From assembly GCF_017353455.1 (NCBI RefSeq), contig NZ_JAFMPZ010000507.1, positions 1 to 43,547 of the forward strand: a stretch of DNA of 43,547 nucleotides, written 5' to 3'. The translations under genes were made by a program, and so were the position numbers. The notes beneath the pieces were generated by a model. That model was not told the origin of the DNA, did not search any database, and saw only the letters and a list, made by a program, of their open reading frames with translations. Of the stretch, positions 7,513 through 17,430 are shown piece after piece (position 1 is the stretch's first letter; each line of letters opens with the position of its first letter). This DNA is from Streptomyces laculatispora. GTDB taxonomy: Bacteria > Actinomycetota > Actinomycetes > Streptomycetales > Streptomycetaceae.

Positions 7513-7573
7513 GATGTGCACCGCCTAGTCCGTCGATGAGCGCCTCGCGGCCAAGGTACCGGGACAACGACCG

Positions 7574-7593
7574 GGGCACCCCGAAAGGTGCCC
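7574..7593 (-). terminator. Hairpin after the HbhA-like gene
   Basis: GGGCACC and GGTGCCC arms with a 6-nt loop, 34 bp beyond the stop of the HbhA-like gene on the minus strand. No U-run. It may separate that transcript partly from DUF2516. Confidence 0.4.
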
Positions 7594-7627
7594 GTCCGTC
7601 CTCCCGGCACACCGGCCGGCCGTCGCG

Positions 7628-8269
7628 CTACTTGCCGGTGGGCGGCGTGGTCTTCTTGGCCGCGGGCTTGCGCGCGGGCGCCTTCCTGGCCGCCGCGGGC
7701 GACGGCTTGGCCTCCGCCTTGACGGTCCTGGCGGCGGGCGCGGGCTTGGCGACCGGCTTCGGCGCGGCCTTGGGCTCAGCCTTGGCCACCGGCTTGGAGT
7801 CCGGCTTGGACTCCTTGCGCGGCTCGACGACGACGGCGATCTCGACGATCTCCTCGGCGGTCTCGCCCCGCCACGTCCGCACGGTCTGCTCGCCGCGCTC
7901 GGCGACCTTCTCGTACGTCTCCCGGGCCCTGACCGCGTACTCGGCGGCCACACCCACACCGCGCAGCGCCAGGTCCTGGGCGCTCTCGCCCAGCTTCTTC
8001 AGATCGGTGTCGAACGCCCCGATCACCTCGGTGACCTTGGCCTGGAAGGTGGCCTGCGCCTCCTTGGCCTGCCCGGTCACCTTCTCCTGCACGACCTTGG
8101 GGTCGGTGTTGCGCACGGCCTCGATACGCTCCGGCGCCTCGGCCCGCAGCTGCTCGATCAGCGCCGGAACCTTGCGCGCCTGCTGCACGGCGAGATCGGC
8201 CGTACCCGCGGCGAAGTAGAGGGGGGTCGGGTCGGTGAGGGTCTTGCGCAGGTCATCGGTGATGGCCAT
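7628..8269 (-). CDS. HbhA-like helical protein with Lys/Ala/Pro tail
   Basis: 213 residues. Residues 1-145 are amphipathic helix/coiled coil (TPLYFAAGTADLAVQQARKV, AEAPERIEAVRN) as in mycobacterial heparin-binding haemagglutinin. Residues about 150-213 are a low-complexity Lys/Ala/Pro tail (KPVAKPAPAARTVKAE, ARKPAAKKTTPP), the feature that binds glycans in HbhA. No signal peptide, as in the mycobacterial protein. A role in heparin binding is not implied for a soil organism; surface or lipid-body association is only inference. It sits 27 bp downstream of its XRE regulator. Confidence 0.8.
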   Translation of the reverse strand: MAITDDLRKTLTDPTPLYFAAGTADLAVQQARKVPALIEQLRAEAPERIEAVRNTDPKVVQEKVTGQAKEAQATFQAKVTEVIGAFDTDLKKLGESAQDLALRGVGVAAEYAVRARETYEKVAERGEQTVRTWRGETAEEIVEIAVVVEPRKESKPDSKPVAKAEPKAAPKPVAKPAPAARTVKAEAKPSPAAARKAPARKPAAKKTTPPTGK

Positions 8270-8296
8270 GACTGTGGTCCTCCCGGATCATCAGAC

Positions 8297-8752
8297 TCAG
8301 TGTGAGGGTTTTGAAGGCTTTGAAGCTGTATCGGCAGCACTGCCGTCGGCATTGAAGGGCGCGTCCGCACCGGACGCATCCCCCTCCTCACCCCCGGGCT
8401 CGTCCTCGAACCCGTTCTCCTTGCGGAAGGAGGCGTAGATCTGCAGCAGCACGCTCTTCTGCCGCTCGTTGATCGACGGATCGGCCAGAATCACCGCCCG
8501 CGTCTCCAGCTCGTCCCGCTCCCGCTCATCCAGGATCCCGGCCCGTACGTAAAGGGTCTCGGCGGAGATCCGCAGCGCCTTGGCGACCTGCTGCAGCACC
8601 TCGGCACTGGGCTTGCGCAGCCCGCGCTCGATCTGGCTGAGATAGGGATTGGATACCCCGGCGGCGTCGGCGAGCTGCCGCAGCGACAGCTGCGCGGTAC
8701 GCCGCTGCTCGCGCAGGTACTCGCCGAGGTTGCCGACGTTGAGTGATGCCAT
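8297..8752 (-). CDS. XRE-family regulator of the hbhA-type locus
   Basis: 151 residues. A Cro/C1-type HTH spans about residues 10-65 (LREQRRTAQLSLRQLADAAG, then SNPYLSQIERGLRKPS). The rest is a short helical region and an acidic tail. It is the first gene of the XRE-HbhA-DUF2516 set; the mycobacterial counterpart is Rv0474. ATG 8752 is the only good start. A perfect 24-bp palindrome lies 28 bp upstream, pointing to autoregulation of the whole set. The left end of the transposon lies only 98 bp upstream of the ATG. Confidence 0.9.
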   Translation of the reverse strand: MASLNVGNLGEYLREQRRTAQLSLRQLADAAGVSNPYLSQIERGLRKPSAEVLQQVAKALRISAETLYVRAGILDERERDELETRAVILADPSINERQKSVLLQIYASFRKENGFEDEPGGEEGDASGADAPFNADGSAADTASKPSKPSH

Positions 8753-8780
8753 GTCTCGATGGTGGACCCTCGGCGCTAAC

Positions 8781-8804
8781 TTTTGCAAGCAGGCGCTTGC
8801 AAAA
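8781..8804. promoter_or_regulatory. Perfect palindromic operator of the XRE gene
   Basis: Arms TTTTGCAAGC and GCTTGCAAAA with a 4-bp spacer AGGC, all 20 arm bases matched, in an otherwise GC-rich spacer and 28 bp before the XRE start. It is the likely self-binding site. The remainder of 8753-9110 is the left end of the mobile element. Confidence 0.75.
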
Positions 8805-8845
8805 GTGTTCCGAACCACTCGTACGGGCCTGTGCGGCTTCCAGCG

Positions 8846-8850
8846 GCAGA
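8846..8850. repeat. Target-site duplication, left copy
   Basis: GCAGA directly outside the left inverted repeat. The same five bases follow the right inverted repeat at 11556-11560. A 5-bp duplication is what Tn7/Tn5053-class transposases generate. Confidence 0.75.
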
Positions 8851-8861
8851 TGTCCGTTCCC
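8851..8861 (+). repeat. Left terminal inverted repeat
   Basis: TGTCCGTTCCC, reading into the element. Weaker similarity to the other two copies of this end continues for about 10 bp. Confidence 0.75.
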
Positions 8862-9110
8862 GGTCTATCTGCGAATTCCCACCGGGTCTGCAATGTGAAG
8901 TGAACGGGTCCCGGACGACCTGCGCAGCGGCCAGCCCACCAGAGCCACCTGCCCGCGAGGGCAGTACCCACCGCTCCGGCTGTCGGATGGCCTGGGAGAT
9001 CACGACGGCCAGCGGACGGACGCCCCACCTTGCCCGAATTGCCGGGAAGGTGGAGCGCCAGGTGCGCCCATTGGTTCGTCGGTTCAGCAGGCGTATCCGT
9101 CCGCCCGTAG

Positions 9111-9959
9111 TTACCGAGGCTGGTAGGAGGTGGCCAGCACGGAGACGGTCACCCGACTGGGCAGGGAGCCGTGGCCGCTCAGGTCCGCGGGGGTCAGGTG
9201 GCGTGCGCTCGGTGTCATTCCCACCAGGTCGATGGCTTCTTGCCTGGTCAGGGGCGTGGTGTATTCGACGTGCTGAGTACCGGCGGCCTGGAAGTAGGGG
9301 TCCAACGCCTGTTGCAGGCGCTGTTCCTTGTCCGGGTCGATCGTGACCATCGTGGGGATCTGGCCCCGTAGCTCGGCCAGGTGCCGCTCGATGGGCCGCA
9401 CCACGATCAACCGGCCGGTCGGACGGAGCACTCGGTGGAACTCGGACGGGTTGCGCGGGGCGAACACGTCCAGCACGACGTCGACCCCCTGGTCAACCAA
9501 GGGGAAGGGGCGAAAGGCGTCCCAGCTCGCCGCAGCAGCTCGCGGATGGGCTCGGGCTGCTGAGCGCAGGGCGCGTGCTGACGTGTCCAGCCCCAGGCCG
9601 CGGGTGCCGGGCAGTTGATCGAGTACGCCGGCCAGGTAGTAGCCGGTGCCGCACCCGATGTCTACGACCGTGCCTTGACCAGGCAGGGCGTCGGCTGTCA
9701 TACGAGTCAGAGTCTGGTGGACAGGGGCGTACCTGCCGGTGGACAGGAACCGGTTTCGGGCCTGAACCATGGCTGCGTCGTCACCGCTGGTGGCGCGGAT
9801 GCCCGTCAGCAGGCTGACGTAGCCCTGACGGGCGATGTCGAAGGTGTGGCCCTCCGGGCAGCGCAGTGAGCCACGGTCGGGTCGGAGACAGGCGCGGCAC
9901 ACCGGGCAGCGCAGCAAGTCGAGAAATGGTTCGAGGGCAGGGGGAAGCAACGCAGGCAC
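9111..9959 (-). CDS. 23S rRNA (guanine-N1) methyltransferase, RlmA/TlrB type
   Basis: 282 residues, the usual length of RlmA-family enzymes. An N-terminal zinc finger has Cys18, Cys21, Cys34 and His38 (RCPVC, RCPEGH), followed by the family signature TFDIARQGYVSLL, an SAM motif VVDIGCGTGYY (about 105-115) and DVFAPRNPSEFHRVLRPTGR. RlmA enzymes methylate G745 or, for the Gram-positive RlmAII/TlrB branch, G748 in the exit tunnel; TlrB contributes to tylosin-type macrolide resistance. The GTG at 9959 has GGAG 6 nt upstream. The 5' leader of about 215 nt holds a mini-ORF and hairpins. It is the cargo gene of the element. Confidence 0.88.
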   Translation of the reverse strand: MPALLPPALEPFLDLLRCPVCRACLRPDRGSLRCPEGHTFDIARQGYVSLLTGIRATSGDDAAMVQARNRFLSTGRYAPVHQTLTRMTADALPGQGTVVDIGCGTGYYLAGVLDQLPGTRGLGLDTSARALRSAARAHPRAAAASWDAFRPFPLVDQGVDVVLDVFAPRNPSEFHRVLRPTGRLIVVRPIERHLAELRGQIPTMVTIDPDKEQRLQQALDPYFQAAGTQHVEYTTPLTRQEAIDLVGMTPSARHLTPADLSGHGSLPSRVTVSVLATSYQPR

Positions 9960-10049
9960 GAGGCACTCCAGGCGACGGTGAAGGGAAGGGACCGTGCCTG
10001 CACGCGCTCTCAAAAGCCGCCGTCTCAAGAAAGAGAGGCCCGGCATCTC

Positions 10050-10133
10050 GCCGCCTCGGTGTGGGCGGCACAAGGGAGATGGATCACGTAAACAGGCACG
10101 CCAAGGAGGGCGACGCCCTACGGCATCGCCCTC
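10050..10133 (-). promoter_or_regulatory. Candidate attenuator leader of the rRNA methyltransferase
   Basis: On the transcript, 12 nt after a 9-codon mini-ORF, an 8-bp hairpin forms (GAGGGCGA / TCGCCCTC, 10106-10133), overlapping an alternative GGGC-GCCC hairpin (10108-10118). Further down a GCCGCC / GGCGGC hairpin (10050-10069) precedes a U-rich patch. Mini-ORF plus mutually exclusive hairpins is the layout of ribosome-mediated attenuation upstream of drug-induced rRNA methylases. No other content is seen in 9960-10300. Confidence 0.5.
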
Positions 10134-10145
10134 AACGCCTCGTGA

Positions 10146-10175
10146 TTACAGAGCCTGGATGTGCTGGGTCCACAT
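10146..10175 (-). CDS. Leader peptide MWTQHIQAL
   Basis: Nine codons plus TAA upstream of the methyltransferase hairpins. AAGG lies 7 nt before the ATG. Too short for coding statistics, so the call depends on its position directly before alternative hairpins in a resistance-type leader. Confidence 0.4.
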   Translation of the reverse strand: MWTQHIQAL

Positions 10176-10301
10176 GCCTACACCTTACGAGCCTTACCAA
10201 AAGCCCGTCCCCTCGCCTCAGCAGTCAAGAGATGCGGCCCGGCGGTGGGGGATCGCGCCGGACTGCGTAATCACCCGGACGAGGGGTTTGGTCCCGTTTA
10301 A

Positions 10302-10391
10302 GCTGCACAGATCGAGTTCGACCACGCCGTCCAGAAGACCCGGCCCGAACGCCCCCGTGCCAAGTACGCCCGCAGGCCGAAGGCGGCCTGA
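10302..10391 (+). pseudogene. 3' remnant of the gene preceding tniQ (possibly tniB)
   Basis: An open frame of 29 codons, closed upstream by a TAA at 10299, reads QIEFDHAVQKTRPERPRAK and ends basic (RRPKAA). Its stop is 3 bp before the tniQ ATG, the spacing of an operon neighbour. In complete tni operons the gene here is tniB, an AAA ATPase. Identity as a tniB tail is inference from position; the basic composition is compatible but not diagnostic. Confidence 0.35.
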
Positions 10392-10394
10392 GTG

Positions 10395-11375
10395 ATGGAG
10401 CCCTGGAAAGCGCCGGTCCGGCTCCTGCCACTTCCTCTGCCGCCTGTCCACGGGGAGGTCTTCGGCTGGTATTTGCACCGCCTCGCCGCCGCCAACCACG
10501 TGACGTCGGGCCAACTGGCGAAGACCCTGACGCCGTTCAAGAACGCGCTGATCGGCAAGCGGACGGACACGTTATGGCGCTGGACTCCGATGGTTCTGCC
10601 GCGGCTGGCACTCCTGACGGGTCTCGCTCCTGAGACCCTTCGGATGCTGCTGCCAGCGATCTCCCGGATTGAGGCGCGTACCGGAGGCGAGGTGATCCGC
10701 TACCGGCGGCGTCTCTACGTCGCGTGCTCACACTGCATGCACCGCCGTGGAATCACCGGACCAGTCCTCGCGCATCGCCCCGCCGACCTCCAGCTCTGCC
10801 GTCGGCACGGCATCTGGCTCGACGGCAACCGCCAATACCGTGTCGGCCACCTGCCAGAACTTGTCACCGCTCAACACCGGCACCGGCGAATCGCCCGCCG
10901 CTTCCCCGACACCCTGGAAGCAGCCACAAAGGAAGCGCAGCACATGGTCCGGTCCTGGCTTCTGAACAAGAAGCAGCCCCATCTGCTCTCACGCTGGAAC
11001 GACCGTCTCGCTCAGCTCCCTCCCAAGGAGGCCGCCTACGAGAACATCATCAGGCGACGCGTCGACGAGCGGGAGTACATCGCCACCTACCCGGAGTTCG
11101 TCACCATGCTCGGCATGGTGACCGACCCTGCTTGGCGAGCACGACGGGCGCCTCGCCCATGGGTGAACCTCAGCCAGCACCGGCGCACGATCGACGCTGT
11201 CTACGCAGAAGCCGAGCACCGGCTCAACGTCCCCTCTCTCCGCGAGAATCGCCACTCACGCACCTTCTTCAACGACGCCCTCTTCCGCTGGACCGACTCA
11301 TTGGGAAGGTCGCTGATGCTGGTGATGTCCCCGGAGGACCACAGCGCCCTACGAGATGATTCCCAGTGGAACTGA
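10395..11375 (+). CDS. tniQ: TniQ-family transposition target-selection protein
   Basis: 326 residues. The N-terminal TniQ signature is clear: a proline-rich start, then GEVFGWYLHRLAAAN (residues 20-34), followed by a zinc-finger-like set Cys111, Cys114, Cys135 and His138 (CSHC ... QLCRRHGIWL). The C-terminal 150 residues are basic and poorly conserved. TniQ/TnsD proteins guide Tn7/Tn5053-class transposition and need a DDE transposase and ATPase, neither of which is complete here. ATG 10395 is favoured over the adjacent GTG 10392 by AAGGCGG 8 nt upstream. It lies inside inverted repeats with a target duplication. Confidence 0.85.
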   Translation: MEPWKAPVRLLPLPLPPVHGEVFGWYLHRLAAANHVTSGQLAKTLTPFKNALIGKRTDTLWRWTPMVLPRLALLTGLAPETLRMLLPAISRIEARTGGEVIRYRRRLYVACSHCMHRRGITGPVLAHRPADLQLCRRHGIWLDGNRQYRVGHLPELVTAQHRHRRIARRFPDTLEAATKEAQHMVRSWLLNKKQPHLLSRWNDRLAQLPPKEAAYENIIRRRVDEREYIATYPEFVTMLGMVTDPAWRARRAPRPWVNLSQHRRTIDAVYAEAEHRLNVPSLRENRHSRTFFNDALFRWTDSLGRSLMLVMSPEDHSALRDDSQWN

Positions 11376-11544
11376 TAAGTCCCAGGCCAGGGCCTATCGA
11401 CCGGACAGAGCTCCTGGGACGGACCCACCTCACGCCCGAACAGTTTCACCGCCGTTCAGATCCGCTGGGCCCTCCACGCTCCGAAGCGTCCCGACCATCA
11501 TGAGAAGGCGCAGATCAGGGGCACCTCACCGACTCAGGTCTTCT

Positions 11545-11555
11545 GGGAACGGACA
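11545..11555 (-). repeat. Right terminal inverted repeat
   Basis: GGGAACGGACA, the exact complement of the left end. Followed by the second GCAGA. Confidence 0.75.
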
Positions 11556-11560
11556 GCAGA
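11556..11560. repeat. Target-site duplication, right copy
   Basis: GCAGA between the right end of the element and a third copy of the terminal sequence. It matches 8846-8850. Confidence 0.75.
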
Positions 11561-11571
11561 TGTCCGTTCCC
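11561..11571 (+). repeat. Third transposon end, facing right
   Basis: TGTCCGTTCCC again, in left-end orientation; with GCAGA and the following GGT the identity to the left end of the element is 19 bp, and 15 of the next 26 bases agree. It looks like the left end of a second related element or relic; no matching right end was seen further on. Confidence 0.6.
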
Positions 11572-11654
11572 GGTAGACATGGCGAGTCCCAGTGGTTCTG
11601 GCCAACGGCTTGGCGGAGTCCCGGCGAAGCCGGCCGGCCTGTGCGGTCCACGGC

Positions 11655-12127
11655 ATGGTTGACGAGTTCGACGTGGCTCAAGCTCTGCGCGGCGGGACAC
11701 CCGACAGGGCGCGGGCCTGGGGCTCCCGCTGCCGACCGCGTTGCGCGATGCCTACTCGCTTCTCGGCGCGCGTCACGACCTCACCGGCAACCAGGACCCG
11801 CTGCTCCAGCCTTCCGAATTGTTCGTGCACGACGAGTTCGGCGGCGTGCACGTTTTCCGCAGCGAGAACCAGGGGTGCGCCTTCTGGGGAGTGCGGCCGC
11901 GGGACCTCGACCGAGACGATCCGCCGGTGTTCGTCCAGTCGCGGGATGGCTGGGTTCCCTTCCTGGAGCGAGTCTCCCTGGCCTCTGCCCCCCTCCCCGG
12001 CCAGTGGGTACATGGATACTCGGAGCCGCTGGAAGCAGACGACCTGCCTTTCCAGGCACTCGGTGATCTGCTTGGACGGCCGGAAAGGCCTGTGCTCCGA
12101 GCGCAACAGGGGCGTGGGGATGGCTGA
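11655..12127 (+). pseudogene. SUKH (SMI1/KNR4-like) protein, internally deleted and frameshifted
   Basis: The 5' part (frame from ATG 11655) reads VDEFDVAQALRGGTPDRARAW, like the start of Streptomyces SMI1/KNR4 proteins. From about 11718, in another frame, LGLPLPTALRDAYSLLG and then VFRSENQGCAFWGV and DLDRDDPPVFV give the conserved SUKH core. Roughly 40 residues normally between these parts are missing and the frame changes, so the gene is broken. SUKH proteins are typically immunity proteins of polymorphic toxin systems. A short coupled frame follows at its 3' end. Confidence 0.6.
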
Positions 12128-12272
12128 TCCGTACGTCATTCTCGACGAGCTCGCTCAGGAGCTTCGGCCGATGCCACGGGGCATCGAACGCCGACGGGAG
12201 CGCTTCCGCTCCGACGGTTGCGGCCACGAATGGCATTGCCTGTCCATTGACACCCCCGTAGCCTCGGCCTGA
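12120..12272 (+). CDS. Small ORF coupled to the SUKH relic
   Basis: 50 codons (MADPYVILDELAQELRP...). Its ATG lies within the last codons of the SUKH relic (GGGGATGGCTGA), the usual look of translational coupling. It has a charged helical stretch and a CGHEWHC motif near the end. No family recognised; it may itself be a truncated remnant. Confidence 0.4.
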   Translation: MADPYVILDELAQELRPMPRGIERRRERFRSDGCGHEWHCLSIDTPVASA

Positions 12273-12481
12273 TCCCTCGCGCTTTCGCGCCTACCGGGCC
12301 AGTGGCCGGAGGGGAAACATCGCGCTCAGCTCGGCAGTGCGCGCATCGCCTCGACCAGCGGCCCAGCTCAGCACGGCGGTGTCATCCACCCCGAAGAGTC
12401 GCAGCACCGGCTGCGGCTGCCGTCGGCTTCGGGGTTCGTCGGCCGCGAGCCGTGTCAGACCTGAGTGCGACACTGCGCCCC

Positions 12482-13279
12482 ATGTCTCTTGCTGATCTCG
12501 GTCTCGACCAGTGGCGGTCCTTCGAGCTGCCTACCGCACGTCGCGTCGCCCAAGAGGCGGCGCACCAGGTGGAGGGCCACGTGACCGTCGTGGAGACCAT
12601 GGAGCATCTCGGTGCTCCGCTGCATCGGGTTCGGATCGAGCGGGACGGGCAGGAATTCGCCCTGATACCCGGCGGCGCGGTGACACTCGGATTCGATCTC
12701 GACGCCTGGCAGCCGACACCTGCGCAGGCCGCCGACTATGCAGAGAGCCTGGATCAGGGCTTTGGCTGTGGCTCCGACCTGCGGGCCCACCTCGCGCACG
12801 TGCTCAGCCCCCGCCGGAGCGTCACCCTAGCCACGGTGCTCATGGCTGTGGAGGACGAGGATCTGACCGAACCGCCTGCCGACATGCCGGCCGTCCTCGC
12901 GGCTCGCGGCCTGCGGATGCCGAGCTCCGACGAGTGGGAGCACGGCTGCGGAGCCGGCACGGACACCCTGTTCCGGTGGGGCAACGACTGCCCCCTGGAC
13001 CGCATCCCCCACGGGGACCGCACCGGCCCGCATCAGCAGCTGAGCGGCTTCGGCCTGCGAATCGCCCATGACACCTACCGCACGGAACTGACGAGCGACG
13101 TCACCGCGGCCCACGGCGGTGACGGCGGCGAGTCGGTGTGCGGGGGGTACGGCTCCATGCTGGCGTGGCTGCCCCTGGCTACTGCCAACCGCAACCCCTC
13201 CATGGCTGAGTTCGCGTACGGGCCGGACGGTGAAGGCCTCTGCGAGGACTTCTCCACCCGTCCCGCGCTCACGCTCTGA
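12482..13279 (+). CDS. Formylglycine-generating-enzyme-like (SUMF1/EgtB-fold) protein
   Basis: 265 residues. The segment LAARGLRMPSSDEWEHGCGA followed by DTLFRWGND is the characteristic LPTEAEWEYA...YPWG stretch of the FGE-sulfatase domain, and an IPGG strand precedes it. The C-terminal part, where FGE has its Cys pair and RGGSW motif, is divergent (ESVCGGYGSMLAWLPLATAN), so oxygenase activity is doubtful; many such proteins are binding modules. The ATG at 12482 follows CGCCCC with no ribosome site, hence possibly leaderless. The 209 bp before it (12273-12481) hold no gene I can support. Confidence 0.6.
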   Translation: MSLADLGLDQWRSFELPTARRVAQEAAHQVEGHVTVVETMEHLGAPLHRVRIERDGQEFALIPGGAVTLGFDLDAWQPTPAQAADYAESLDQGFGCGSDLRAHLAHVLSPRRSVTLATVLMAVEDEDLTEPPADMPAVLAARGLRMPSSDEWEHGCGAGTDTLFRWGNDCPLDRIPHGDRTGPHQQLSGFGLRIAHDTYRTELTSDVTAAHGGDGGESVCGGYGSMLAWLPLATANRNPSMAEFAYGPDGEGLCEDFSTRPALTL

Positions 13280-13373
13280 TCCTCTTGGGCTCGAACCGGT
13301 GCAGTAGGCCGGCGGTGCCGTGGGTGCGGCGGAAGAGATGCTCGGGCATCTCGCGAAGCCCTCTTGGATCCTT

Positions 13374-15539: not shown

Positions 15540-16031
15540 TCAGAAGTACGTCGCGATCCCGAAGGCTCGACGGAGTTGAGCCATGTCGTGCCGATCGCGG
15601 TCCGTGGGCTCGTAGCCCTGGTGGAAGCAGACCTGCTGCTCGGCGGACAGACACGGGACGGGCGTTCCCTCGATAGCGCCGGTCACAAAACATCGTGGGG
15701 GATAGAGGAACGGACGTTCCGGTTCGGGTGACGCCTGCACCGCCGAGCCGTCGTCGGCGAAGACGAGGGGATGAAGATCGATTTCCCGGCCGTCCGGAGC
15801 CGTGACGACGAATCGGATGGGCCTCCAGCTCAGGCTCTCGACGAACCCCACCTCGGAGAGAGCTGCCATCACAGCGGCCTCCTGGTCCTTCCGATGCATC
15901 AGGTCCAAGTCGCGATGATCCCGGGTCCGTTCACCGATCAGAGCATCGATCCCCCATCCTCCGCCGATCCAGACATCCGCTTCAGCCCGTCGCAGCAGAG
16001 CCAGGACGGACAACACGGCTTCAGCTGTCAT
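15540..16031 (-). CDS. ANT(2'')/Lnu-type nucleotidyltransferase
   Basis: 163 residues. The nucleotidyltransferase core is obvious: WIGGGWGIDALIGERTRDHR, then DLDL with the metal-binding Asp pair, then EIDLHPLVF supplying the third acidic residue. This matches the short aminoglycoside-2''-adenylyl / lincosamide nucleotidyltransferase family. Whether it modifies a drug, and which, cannot be told from sequence; many chromosomal members are not proven resistance genes. ATG 16031 is preceded by an in-frame GTG; no strong ribosome site is seen. The 208 bp before it carry nothing definable. Confidence 0.75.
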   Translation of the reverse strand: MTAEAVLSVLALLRRAEADVWIGGGWGIDALIGERTRDHRDLDLMHRKDQEAAVMAALSEVGFVESLSWRPIRFVVTAPDGREIDLHPLVFADDGSAVQASPEPERPFLYPPRCFVTGAIEGTPVPCLSAEQQVCFHQGYEPTDRDRHDMAQLRRAFGIATYF

Positions 16032-16239
16032 CACGCGACGCAGGCTAGAAGCGATCACCCCGGACAGCGAACGAATTCCTTCGGCCGGTCGCCGCAGGTC
16101 ACAGGAGTGGGTCAGGGACTGATCGTTTGCGAGGAGACATCCCATGCGCCGAACTGCCCACACCTGCGCGGGACGGCCTCGGCCGGCACGTCCCGGACAG
16201 GACGAAGCACCGCGGGTCAGAGCCTCGCACGGCCCGCAC

Positions 16240-17430
16240 TCAGCTGGGACAGGACACCGGCAGGGCACCTGTCGCCCGCCGCGAGAGCGCCCACACCGCC
16301 AGCGCGGCCACGGCATAGGCGGCGCCGAGCAGGCAGGACGCCCACCACCCCGAGGAGGCGTACGCCCACGCCGTGGTCACGGCACCGAGGGCGGAGCCGA
16401 GCGAGTAGAAGGCCATATAGGCGCCGATGACGCTGCTGGAACGTTCGGGGTGCGCGGCGGTGAGGAGGTGCTGACTGCTCACATGCACGGCCTGGACGGC
16501 GAAGTCGAGCAGCACGACGCCTGCGATGAGCGGCCACAGGGCCGGTGCCGTCTGCGCGGTGAGCGTCCAGGACGCGGCCAGTAGCGCCAGCGACCAGCCG
16601 GTGACGGCCTGGGCGCGCCCCGCGTCGGCCCAGACGCCCGCGCGCCCGGCCGCCACGGCACCGATGAGGCCGGCCAGACCGAACAGCCCGATGGTCGTCG
16701 TACCGAAGTGCCATGGCGCGGCGGCCAACGGCAGGGCCAGCCCGCTCCACAGGGTGCCGAAGGACGCGAACAGGAAGAACGCGATCAGCCCGCGGCCGAG
16801 GAAGAGCCGATCGGTGGCGACGAGACGTCCCGCGGTGGCGAGGACATCCCGGTAGCGGGCCCGCGCGGGCCGGGCGTCGGGGTCGAGGGTCCGGTGCGCG
16901 ATCAGAGCGAGAGCGAGGCAGAGTGCGGCAAGAACGGCGTAGACGGCCCGCCACCCGACGTGGTCACCCAGCACACCCGCGAGCACGCGGACGCCGAGAA
17001 TCCCGAGCACCACCCCGGAGGTGACCGTGCCGATGTTGCGGCCGCGCTCGCCGGGCGGCGAGGTGGCCGCGACATAGGCGACCGTGATCTGCACAACCAC
17101 CGCGAACAGGCCCGCGACCGCCAGGCCGACCCCGGCGATCACGCCTCCGGGCGCGAGGGACGTGATCGTCGCACCCGCGCCGGTGAGGATCAGATGCCCG
17201 ACGATCAGCGTGCGCCGGTCGAGGACGTCCCCGAGCGGCACCAGCAGGACGAGCCCGGCGAAGTACCCGAGCTGGCCGACCGCGACCAGCCACCCCAGCG
17301 CCGAACCGGCCAGCCCGAGGTCGCTGCCCGCGGCCTCCAGCACCGGCTGGATCGCGTAGATCGTGGACACCGCCACCGCGCACACCGACGCCAGGACGAA
17401 ACGCTGCCCGCTCGTGATCGTCGACGACAT
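16240..17430 (-). CDS. MFS transporter controlled by HxlR
   Basis: 396-residue major facilitator with 12 predicted spans. The motif A equivalent PLGDVLDRR follows span 2, and SPPGERGRNIGTVTSGVVLG resembles members of the drug:H+ antiporter group (NarK/AraJ-like). It sits in the cytoplasmic membrane and probably exports a small molecule. ATG 17430 (MSSTIT) is chosen because AGAGG precedes it. The gene is divergent from an HxlR regulator with a palindrome between them, so the pair is probably one inducible efflux unit. Confidence 0.85.
   Translation of the reverse strand: MSSTITSGQRFVLASVCAVAVSTIYAIQPVLEAAGSDLGLAGSALGWLVAVGQLGYFAGLVLLVPLGDVLDRRTLIVGHLILTGAGATITSLAPGGVIAGVGLAVAGLFAVVVQITVAYVAATSPPGERGRNIGTVTSGVVLGILGVRVLAGVLGDHVGWRAVYAVLAALCLALALIAHRTLDPDARPARARYRDVLATAGRLVATDRLFLGRGLIAFFLFASFGTLWSGLALPLAAAPWHFGTTTIGLFGLAGLIGAVAAGRAGVWADAGRAQAVTGWSLALLAASWTLTAQTAPALWPLIAGVVLLDFAVQAVHVSSQHLLTAAHPERSSSVIGAYMAFYSLGSALGAVTTAWAYASSGWWASCLLGAAYAVAALAVWALSRRATGALPVSCPS

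Follow-up and report, generated by a model that had tools for sequence, protein, structure and literature searches.

A probable Tn7-like transposon with an internal deletion, inserted at a constant distance from a palindrome preceding an XRE-type regulator gene of Streptomyces

The window analysed here is a 43.5-kb stretch of a Streptomyces laculatispora contig (NZ_JAFMPZ010000507.1), and all coordinates refer to its full length. It carries a 2705-bp element (8851–11555), with high probability a Tn7-like transposon that has undergone an internal deletion. The element lies a constant number of bases away from a palindrome that precedes an XRE-type regulator gene of the host, the place to which TniQ likely directed the TnsA, TnsB and TnsC proteins of the ancestral element. 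The evidence comes from the sequence of the element, from an empty site in the same species and from related elements in other genomes. Further in the text, genomes are denoted by G numbers and loci by L numbers; G000 is the genome of the window (assembly 84% complete).

The 11-bp sequence TGTCCGTTCCC occurs in the window in three exact copies, at 8851–8861 (plus strand), 11545–11555 (minus strand) and 11561–11571 (plus strand). The first two are the perfect inverted ends of the element, and GCAGA at 8846–8850 and 11556–11560 forms its left and right target-site duplications; the ends and the repeats around these 2705 bp had been correctly recognised in an earlier sequence-only reading of this DNA. 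In the left end (8851–8922, plus strand) the terminal repeat is joined by three copies of the subterminal repeat KTCCC-N5..8-YCTG, starting at element positions 7, 26 and 58 (background 0.03 per 150 bp), while the right end (11515–11555, minus strand) combines the terminal repeat with the conserved AGAAGACCTGA and has matches to the subterminal repeat at positions 7 and 136. Arrays at both ends are a feature of Tn7-like elements; in the left ends of the relatives described below, two matches each were found in L098 and L061, one in L070 and none in L099.

In the same-species genome G166 the flanks CGGCTTCCAGCGGCAGA and TGTCCGTTCTC are joined with one GCAGA, the 2.7-kb element is absent, and a second left end follows directly. 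This junction is a precise empty site, which the sequence-only reading had suggested looking for in related strains. Since the joined flanks contain a single GCAGA, the 2705-bp unit was inserted precisely. The third exact copy of the end, not mentioned in that reading, begins the second left end at 11561, which abuts the right GCAGA; the repeat is 45 nt long with 76% identity. It belongs to a second element of the same family, which the window and G166 have in common up to 13291 (11561–13291) and whose first 0.8 kb is also common to L099 from S. antnestii. No right end was found for this second element. It is the older of the two, as G166 carries it without the first.

A search for TniQ in 295 genomes of the genus yielded 45 genomes with a match at E ≤ 1e-5, seven of which, including that of the window, encode a TniQ with at least 69% identity. 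Six loci were taken from a scan of named genomes (S. composti, S. sp. SirexAA-E, S. antnestii, S. sp. ADI96-02, S. sp. I05A-00742 and a metagenome-assembled genome, MAG, of Streptosporangiaceae). Nine elements, that of the window included, have both ends; the other eight are 7330 bp (twice in G096), 6009 bp (G067), 7678 bp (G003), 7850 bp (G100), 10547 bp (S. sp. SirexAA-E), 7355 bp (S. antnestii) and 6002 bp (S. composti) long. Seven of the nine are flanked by perfect 5-bp duplications: GCAGA in the window, GGTGC in L067, GCCCA in L068, GTCGA in L069, TCCGG in L070, CTGGG in L098 and GCCGA in L099. One base differs in the duplication of L061, and L095 has none.

The complete core, in the order TnsA-like, TnsB, TnsC, TniQ, is present in seven relatives (L061, L067–L070, L098 and L099; in L099 tnsC lies in two frames). 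The proteins of L067 match the domains of their Tn7-like counterparts: PF00665 and PF09299 (rve and Mu C-terminal) for TnsB, PF05621 (E = 7e-15) for the AAA+ ATPase TnsC/TniB, and PF08722 (E = 1.1e-6) for TnsA, which also scores 305 bits with NCBIfam NF033179 (cut-off 110). The tnsB gene is absent from the window copy, and the TnsA-like gene from the window copy, L095 and L064. Because the complete relatives carry TnsA-like, TnsB, TnsC and TniQ genes, the family is, judging from gene content, Tn7-like. The sequence-only reading had called the element Tn402-like. We rejected this assignment given the TnsA-like genes of the seven complete-core relatives, the Tn402/Tn5053 family being characterised by tniA-tniB-tniQ without tnsA and with a resolvase (tniR); no resolvase domain was present among the six L067 proteins scanned, the resolvase scan being limited to this locus.

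The host gene beside the site occupies 8297–8752 on the minus strand and encodes a 151-aa XRE/HTH_3-type regulator from the ATG at 8752 (Pfam HTH_3, E = 7.6e-15, scanned from 8755). Upstream of its start lies the perfect palindrome ACTTTTGCAAGC-AGGC-GCTTGCAAAAGT (8779–8806), the core of the attachment site and a predicted operator of the XRE gene. The half-site GCTTGCAAAAGT at 8795–8806, from which the insertion distance was counted, is the motif taken to set the point of insertion. A spacer of 44 bp (8807–8850) separates it from the left end; the sequence of this spacer varies among species, and its length is 41–45 bp in the 22 loci of the scan described below. The left flank of the window element matches that of most relatives, with the XRE-type gene and the palindrome ACTTTTGCAAGC-N4-GCTTGCAAAAGT, and the gene adjoins the insertion in seven of the nine two-ended elements, unlike the plasmid res sites near which Tn402/Tn5053 insert. 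The gaps between palindrome and left end in these seven are 44, 44, 44, 45, 43, 41 and 41 bp; in the partial MAG locus L064 the gap is 39 bp.

Genomes were scanned with the pattern motif-N36..48-TGTCCGTTC, where the motif was GCTTGCA(A/T)(A/G/T)AGT. Matches were found in 18 of 392 genomes of the genus; a scan at the level of the order gave 8 of 147, including four among 96 genomes not scanned before, and together this makes 22 of 488. The reversed pattern gave no match in the same genomes, and the order scan found nothing in 15 genomes of other genera. The 22 gaps are confined to 41–45 bp (44 in eight, 43 in seven, 42 in four, 41 in two and 45 in one), and in each case the left end faces the motif (right-end-like in 0 of 22), as expected of a Tn7-like element with fixed distance and orientation; the two-ended element L061 is an exception to this placement. 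The KTCCC subterminal repeat was recovered by a strict test in 19 of the 22; CTCCC takes its place in another two, and the case of L103 is doubtful.

In 90 of 96 genomes (57 of 61 and 33 of 35) the palindrome is single-copy, and it is missing from the other six, the reversed control giving none. Among 42 genomes having both the palindrome and a TniQ relative, the two lie within 10 kb of each other in 15; in 12 they are on different contigs and the distance is unreadable. All seven TniQ proteins with at least 69% identity are encoded within 10 kb of the palindrome. The strongest single piece of evidence for motif-set insertion comes from G096. Its second copy (L068), identical over 7330 bases, lies 1.1 Mb away within an open reading frame (ORF) of SWIM type (domain recognised by eye), 44 bp from GCTTGCAGAAGT, a half-site with one mismatch that lacks the other palindrome arm. 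The fetched loci offer about 444,000 positions, of which only 217 have a half-site with at most two mismatches at gaps of 39–45 bp; 168 of the 217 are exact motifs and correspond for the most part to the attachment sites.

TniQ is the only candidate selector shared by the full-length relatives and is therefore the likely selector of this new attachment site; since full-length Tn7-like relatives in other species sit at the same place, it likely reads the palindrome. In the mechanism that we propose, TniQ would read the half-site, recruit TnsC and TnsAB, and place strand transfer about 44 bp from the half-site, the left end being turned towards the motif. Such a site could serve as a safe haven, in which the regulator gene and the palindrome stay intact.

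Two observations qualify the reading of TniQ-directed insertion at the palindrome. L061 sits where no motif was found. Further, of the 22 genomes with a scan match, five were already among the studied loci and three had too short contigs, and among the 14 loci fetched nine show a left end only. These loci have decayed and are perhaps in part inherited. Elsewhere in this set, L166 retains a part of TnsB, TnsC and TniQ, L154 and L159 contain TnsA-like pieces, the right end of L165 and of L166 is exact but flanked by a sequence other than that at the left end, and L157 has a right-end candidate with two mismatches and a matching duplication.

Random inverted and direct repeats round unrelated genes would be the simplest alternative. 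It was rejected as having a negligible probability: although matches to the 11-bp end with at most two mismatches are frequent in this GC-rich window (30 versus 18 expected), exact copies number only three, the same ends bound related elements elsewhere with perfect duplications, and the empty site exists. A quite improbable explanation is an old inherited scar, that is, a left end near the palindrome ancestral in Streptomyces, with the distance preserved by descent and the cargo swapped by homologous recombination. Such a history would agree with the prevalence, outside the TniQ-bearing genomes, of attachment-site left ends lacking a right end and core genes, and with the recurrence of the left-end type AGTAGATGTGGCGAGTCCC in several species. 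For the window element it is contradicted by the precise empty site and the GCAGA duplication within the same species. The perfect duplications differ among seven elements, several left-end types exist, the identical second copy in G096 lies at a half-site in an unrelated gene, and a left end at this distance is present in only 22 of 488 genomes. Somewhat less improbable, yet still unlikely, is that TniQ does not read DNA itself but attaches to the XRE protein of the host while this protein occupies its palindrome. The motif is, after all, the single-copy palindrome directly upstream of the XRE gene, and for mid-sized TniQ proteins, such as those of 326–327 aa considered here, direct binding and dependence on a partner are hard to tell apart (excerpts of PMC10293859). 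The ectopic copy in G096, however, used one half-site without the second arm, which is better explained by direct reading of 12 bp than by binding of a dimeric repressor.

The 2.7-kb size of the window copy is best understood by comparison with the full-length L067, relative to which about 3.8 kb is absent. On the left side of the junction (at about 10309), 10234–10310 (plus strand) is 87% identical to the sequence preceding tnsA. On the right side, 10308–10388 (plus strand) is a remnant with the last 27 codons of tnsC/tniB (tblastn, L067 TnsC residues 324–350, 63% identity); from 10309 onwards the window corresponds to the end of tnsC, with a 2-bp overlap, AG, at the junction. One deletion of about 3.8 kb in a full element accounts for the loss of tnsA, tnsB and most of tnsC. 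The orphan tniQ is, on this account, a leftover and not a gene gained alone; the sequence-only reading was right in describing tniQ without tniA or an intact tniB. L095, which lies at the same attachment site, has the same methylase cargo (96–97% DNA identity) and still retains TnsC residues 184–350, which suggests that the cargo rode a fuller element and that the deletion in the window occurred later or in another lineage; as 2045 N interrupt the sequence of L095 where its transposase genes lie, its own losses are not fully readable. The methylase gene of L095 is split by an insertion of about 1.36 kb with a 4-bp overlap. With tnsA, tnsB and most of tnsC gone, the window copy is not an autonomous transposon, and it is predicted to be immobile unless TnsABC are supplied by a sister element.

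The same anatomy would result whether the deletion followed the arrival of a full element or the stripped unit itself moved. The sequence-only reading had taken the latter view of a trans-mobilised unit, which in our version means that the 2.7-kb derivative moved as such, with the TnsABC of another element acting in trans and its own TniQ choosing the target. In its favour, neither the two ends with their subterminal repeats nor tniQ are damaged, the distance of the copy, 44 bp, is the most frequent one, and the genome contains other TnsB genes (45–54% identity). A possible second stripped unit is found in another species at L165 (408–2886, G472), with the left end at the site, an exact right end 2479 bp on and no TnsABC or TniQ gene between them, the flanks ACGGC and GCAGT being unmatched. 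Movement in trans nevertheless seems to us rather unlikely, considering that one copy of the derivative was found over its own genome, the 295 genomes of the TniQ search and plasmids, that the nearest relative with matching cargo, L095, does not share the deletion, and that the cognate TnsB was found neither in G000 at its present completeness nor in G166. We favour deletion because neither a second stripped copy nor a cognate TnsB was found.

The searches behind this were as follows. In G000, exact matches to the 13-mer TGTCCGTTCCCGG are confined to two sites, both in the window (32 sites with at most one mismatch), and a search with the whole element returned the window only; an element with tniA, tniB and the same ends, for which the sequence-only reading had proposed a search of this genome, did not appear there. 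A plasmid source was rejected: a set of 72,556 plasmid records contained 19 with a match, in no case over 80% of the query. The best-ranked plasmid matches listed cover the methylase part only, at 76–78%; four records, including two at 80–90%, stand outside these. No cognate transposase was found in G000. Other Tn7-like TnsB genes of this genome, 45–49% identical, are two back to back on contig C560 (3975–5822 on the minus and 7560–9572 on the plus strand), one on C185 (26099–27973) and one, frame-broken, on C387.

The cargo of the window element (9111–10073, minus strand) is a predicted RlmA-type 23S rRNA (guanine-N1) methyltransferase; the listed ORF opens with TTG, and the true start is probably further in. 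The protein contains PF21302 (E = 2.3e-12) and methyltransferase domains, and its best NCBIfam matches are MyrA (2.2e-63) and ChrB (3.2e-63). It belongs to the same enzyme family as the G748 methylases MyrA, ChrB and Erm(32) and the G745 methylase RlmA, but it reaches only about one third of the bits required for the curated resistance names (214.5 versus 625 for MyrA, 213.8 versus 620 for ChrB and 196.4 versus 550 for Erm32). Of the macrolide-type resistance methylase seen in the sequence-only reading, the predicted rRNA methylase stands, and the scores do not support the resistance. The tniQ gene (10392–11375, plus strand) is intact and encodes a 327-aa protein with the PF06527 domain of Tn7-like TniQ/TnsD selectors (E = 6.5e-7), 82–94% identical to those of five relatives (324–326 aa). 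It has no stop, and the ratio of nonsynonymous to synonymous substitution rates (dN/dS) is 0.17–0.21 in five comparisons, L067 being left out because of its length; these values mostly reflect shared history. Foldseek returned no match at E ≤ 0.001 for the predicted structure of TniQ, which replaced an earlier model built on 11 sequences with a low predicted local distance difference test (pLDDT) score of 62.5.

In the full-length relatives, the cargo of L067 comprises an FAD monooxygenase and a TetR regulator (Pfam), and in L069, L070 and L099 methyltransferase, ATPase-like and SMI1-like proteins were recognised by eye from the sequences. Between the left end and tnsA, only the first 60–107 bp or so are common to the six full-length relatives, and this in some pairs; L061 and L098 additionally share the 175 bp preceding tnsA.

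Eight further loci (L169–L176) from other species encode a TniQ with about 26–34% identity at 1–5 kb from the palindrome. Six of them have the full TnsA-TnsB-TnsC-TniQ set (TnsB 46–57% identical to that of L067), and two are broken. In seven of the eight the first 60 bases or so past the palindrome contain what look by eye like transposon ends of other types (TGTCTC.. or TGTGAC..), with different offsets. Candidate paired ends were seen in one of the eight loci (L172, 3–4 mismatches) and are not convincing. L100 (S. sp. I05A-00742) has TGTGACTTCCAGCGTTAGCTGTCACATTTCAGCGCTTGTTGTCAC 23 bp past the palindrome, a transposon end of a different type with repeated sites; TnsABC relatives (26–35% identity) lie on the opposite strand some kb from the palindrome. 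One may tentatively suppose that the palindrome is a Streptomyces landing hub, a repressor operator independently adopted by several divergent Tn7-like lineages with different ends and offsets and by stripped units, among them the 2.7-kb methylase element and a 783-bp NUDIX element, with a single short TniQ imitating or riding the repressor and the stripped units still travelling in trans, the methylase unit together with its own targeting gene. We consider this broader reading the less probable one, because the ends of the divergent elements could not be paired.

Other insertions are present around the site. In G166, a 783-bp insertion (L096, 1282–2064) has the ends TGAGCCTGAGC and TGAGACGGAGC (TGAG..), a CCTGT duplication and a NUDIX-like ORF (named by eye). 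With 26 bp between it and the half-site, it lies 18 bp closer to the palindrome than the window element does, and its sequence resembles that of a further stripped element with one cargo gene. Next to the attachment site, the variable region also contains, at 15540–16316 (minus strand), an ORF of the aminoglycoside-2''-adenylyltransferase family (PF10706, E = 2.1e-63).

The landing site has apparently been unreported so far; it was also absent from the sequence-only reading. The literature search, among open-licence PMC papers, yielded no paper describing an XRE-upstream palindrome as an attachment site, or TniQ with XRE in Streptomyces. Mycobacterial Rv0474 is a possible counterpart of the XRE gene; the literature search led nowhere in this respect. 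The chromosomal sites of Tn7-like elements named in the excerpts of PMC11406308 and PMC10293859 are glmS, tRNA genes, parE and comM, and no attachment site at an XRE gene is named in those of PMC8649781, PMC10293859, PMC11406308 and PMC12231136. We would accordingly describe a Tn7-like family with an apparently new attachment site, with the window element as its decayed member. Tn7-like elements pick safe chromosomal sites via dedicated selectors. If our interpretation is true, a 12-bp motif within a palindrome found once in nearly every Streptomyces checked, and read from about 44 bp away by a 326-aa TniQ, would constitute a compact new system of site-specific insertion in a genus of central industrial importance. 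It makes directly testable whether a mid-sized TniQ reads DNA alone or needs a partner, and the orphan tniQ is accounted for by the ordinary decay of a once complete transposon.

Among known systems, Tn402/Tn5053 (tniABQR) have TniQ and TniB homologues in common with this family, and also resemble the window element in 5-bp duplications and ends beginning with TGTC. They differ in that the complete relatives of the window element have a TnsA-like endonuclease and a chromosomal target beside the XRE gene, whereas Tn5053 targets plasmid resolution sites (excerpts of PMC11406308). Tn7 with its TnsD pathway shares TnsA, TnsB, TnsC and a selector with the TniQ domain. Its 5-bp duplication is the same in length as that of the window element. 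Tn7 likewise inserts at a fixed distance and in a fixed orientation from a conserved chromosomal site, attTn7, and has subterminal repeats (excerpts of PMC11406308 and PMC8649781). The attachment site of Tn7 is the coding end of glmS, while that of the present family is a palindrome upstream of a regulator gene; the family has a single 326-aa TniQ, the six proteins scanned in L067 including nothing else that resembles a selector, its ends begin with TGTCCGTTC, and the distance from the motif is 41–45 bp. The Actinobacteria-dominated clade 2 of the Tn7-like TnsB tree includes, as far as the excerpts of Benler 2021 (PMC8649781) go, no experimentally characterised member, and these excerpts mention no attachment site at an XRE gene for it. 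Clade 2 is likewise actinobacterial and Tn7-like (the same excerpts), the L067 TnsA matches the NCBIfam TnsA_like_Actin model far above its cut-off, and the family of the window element is a candidate member of this clade.

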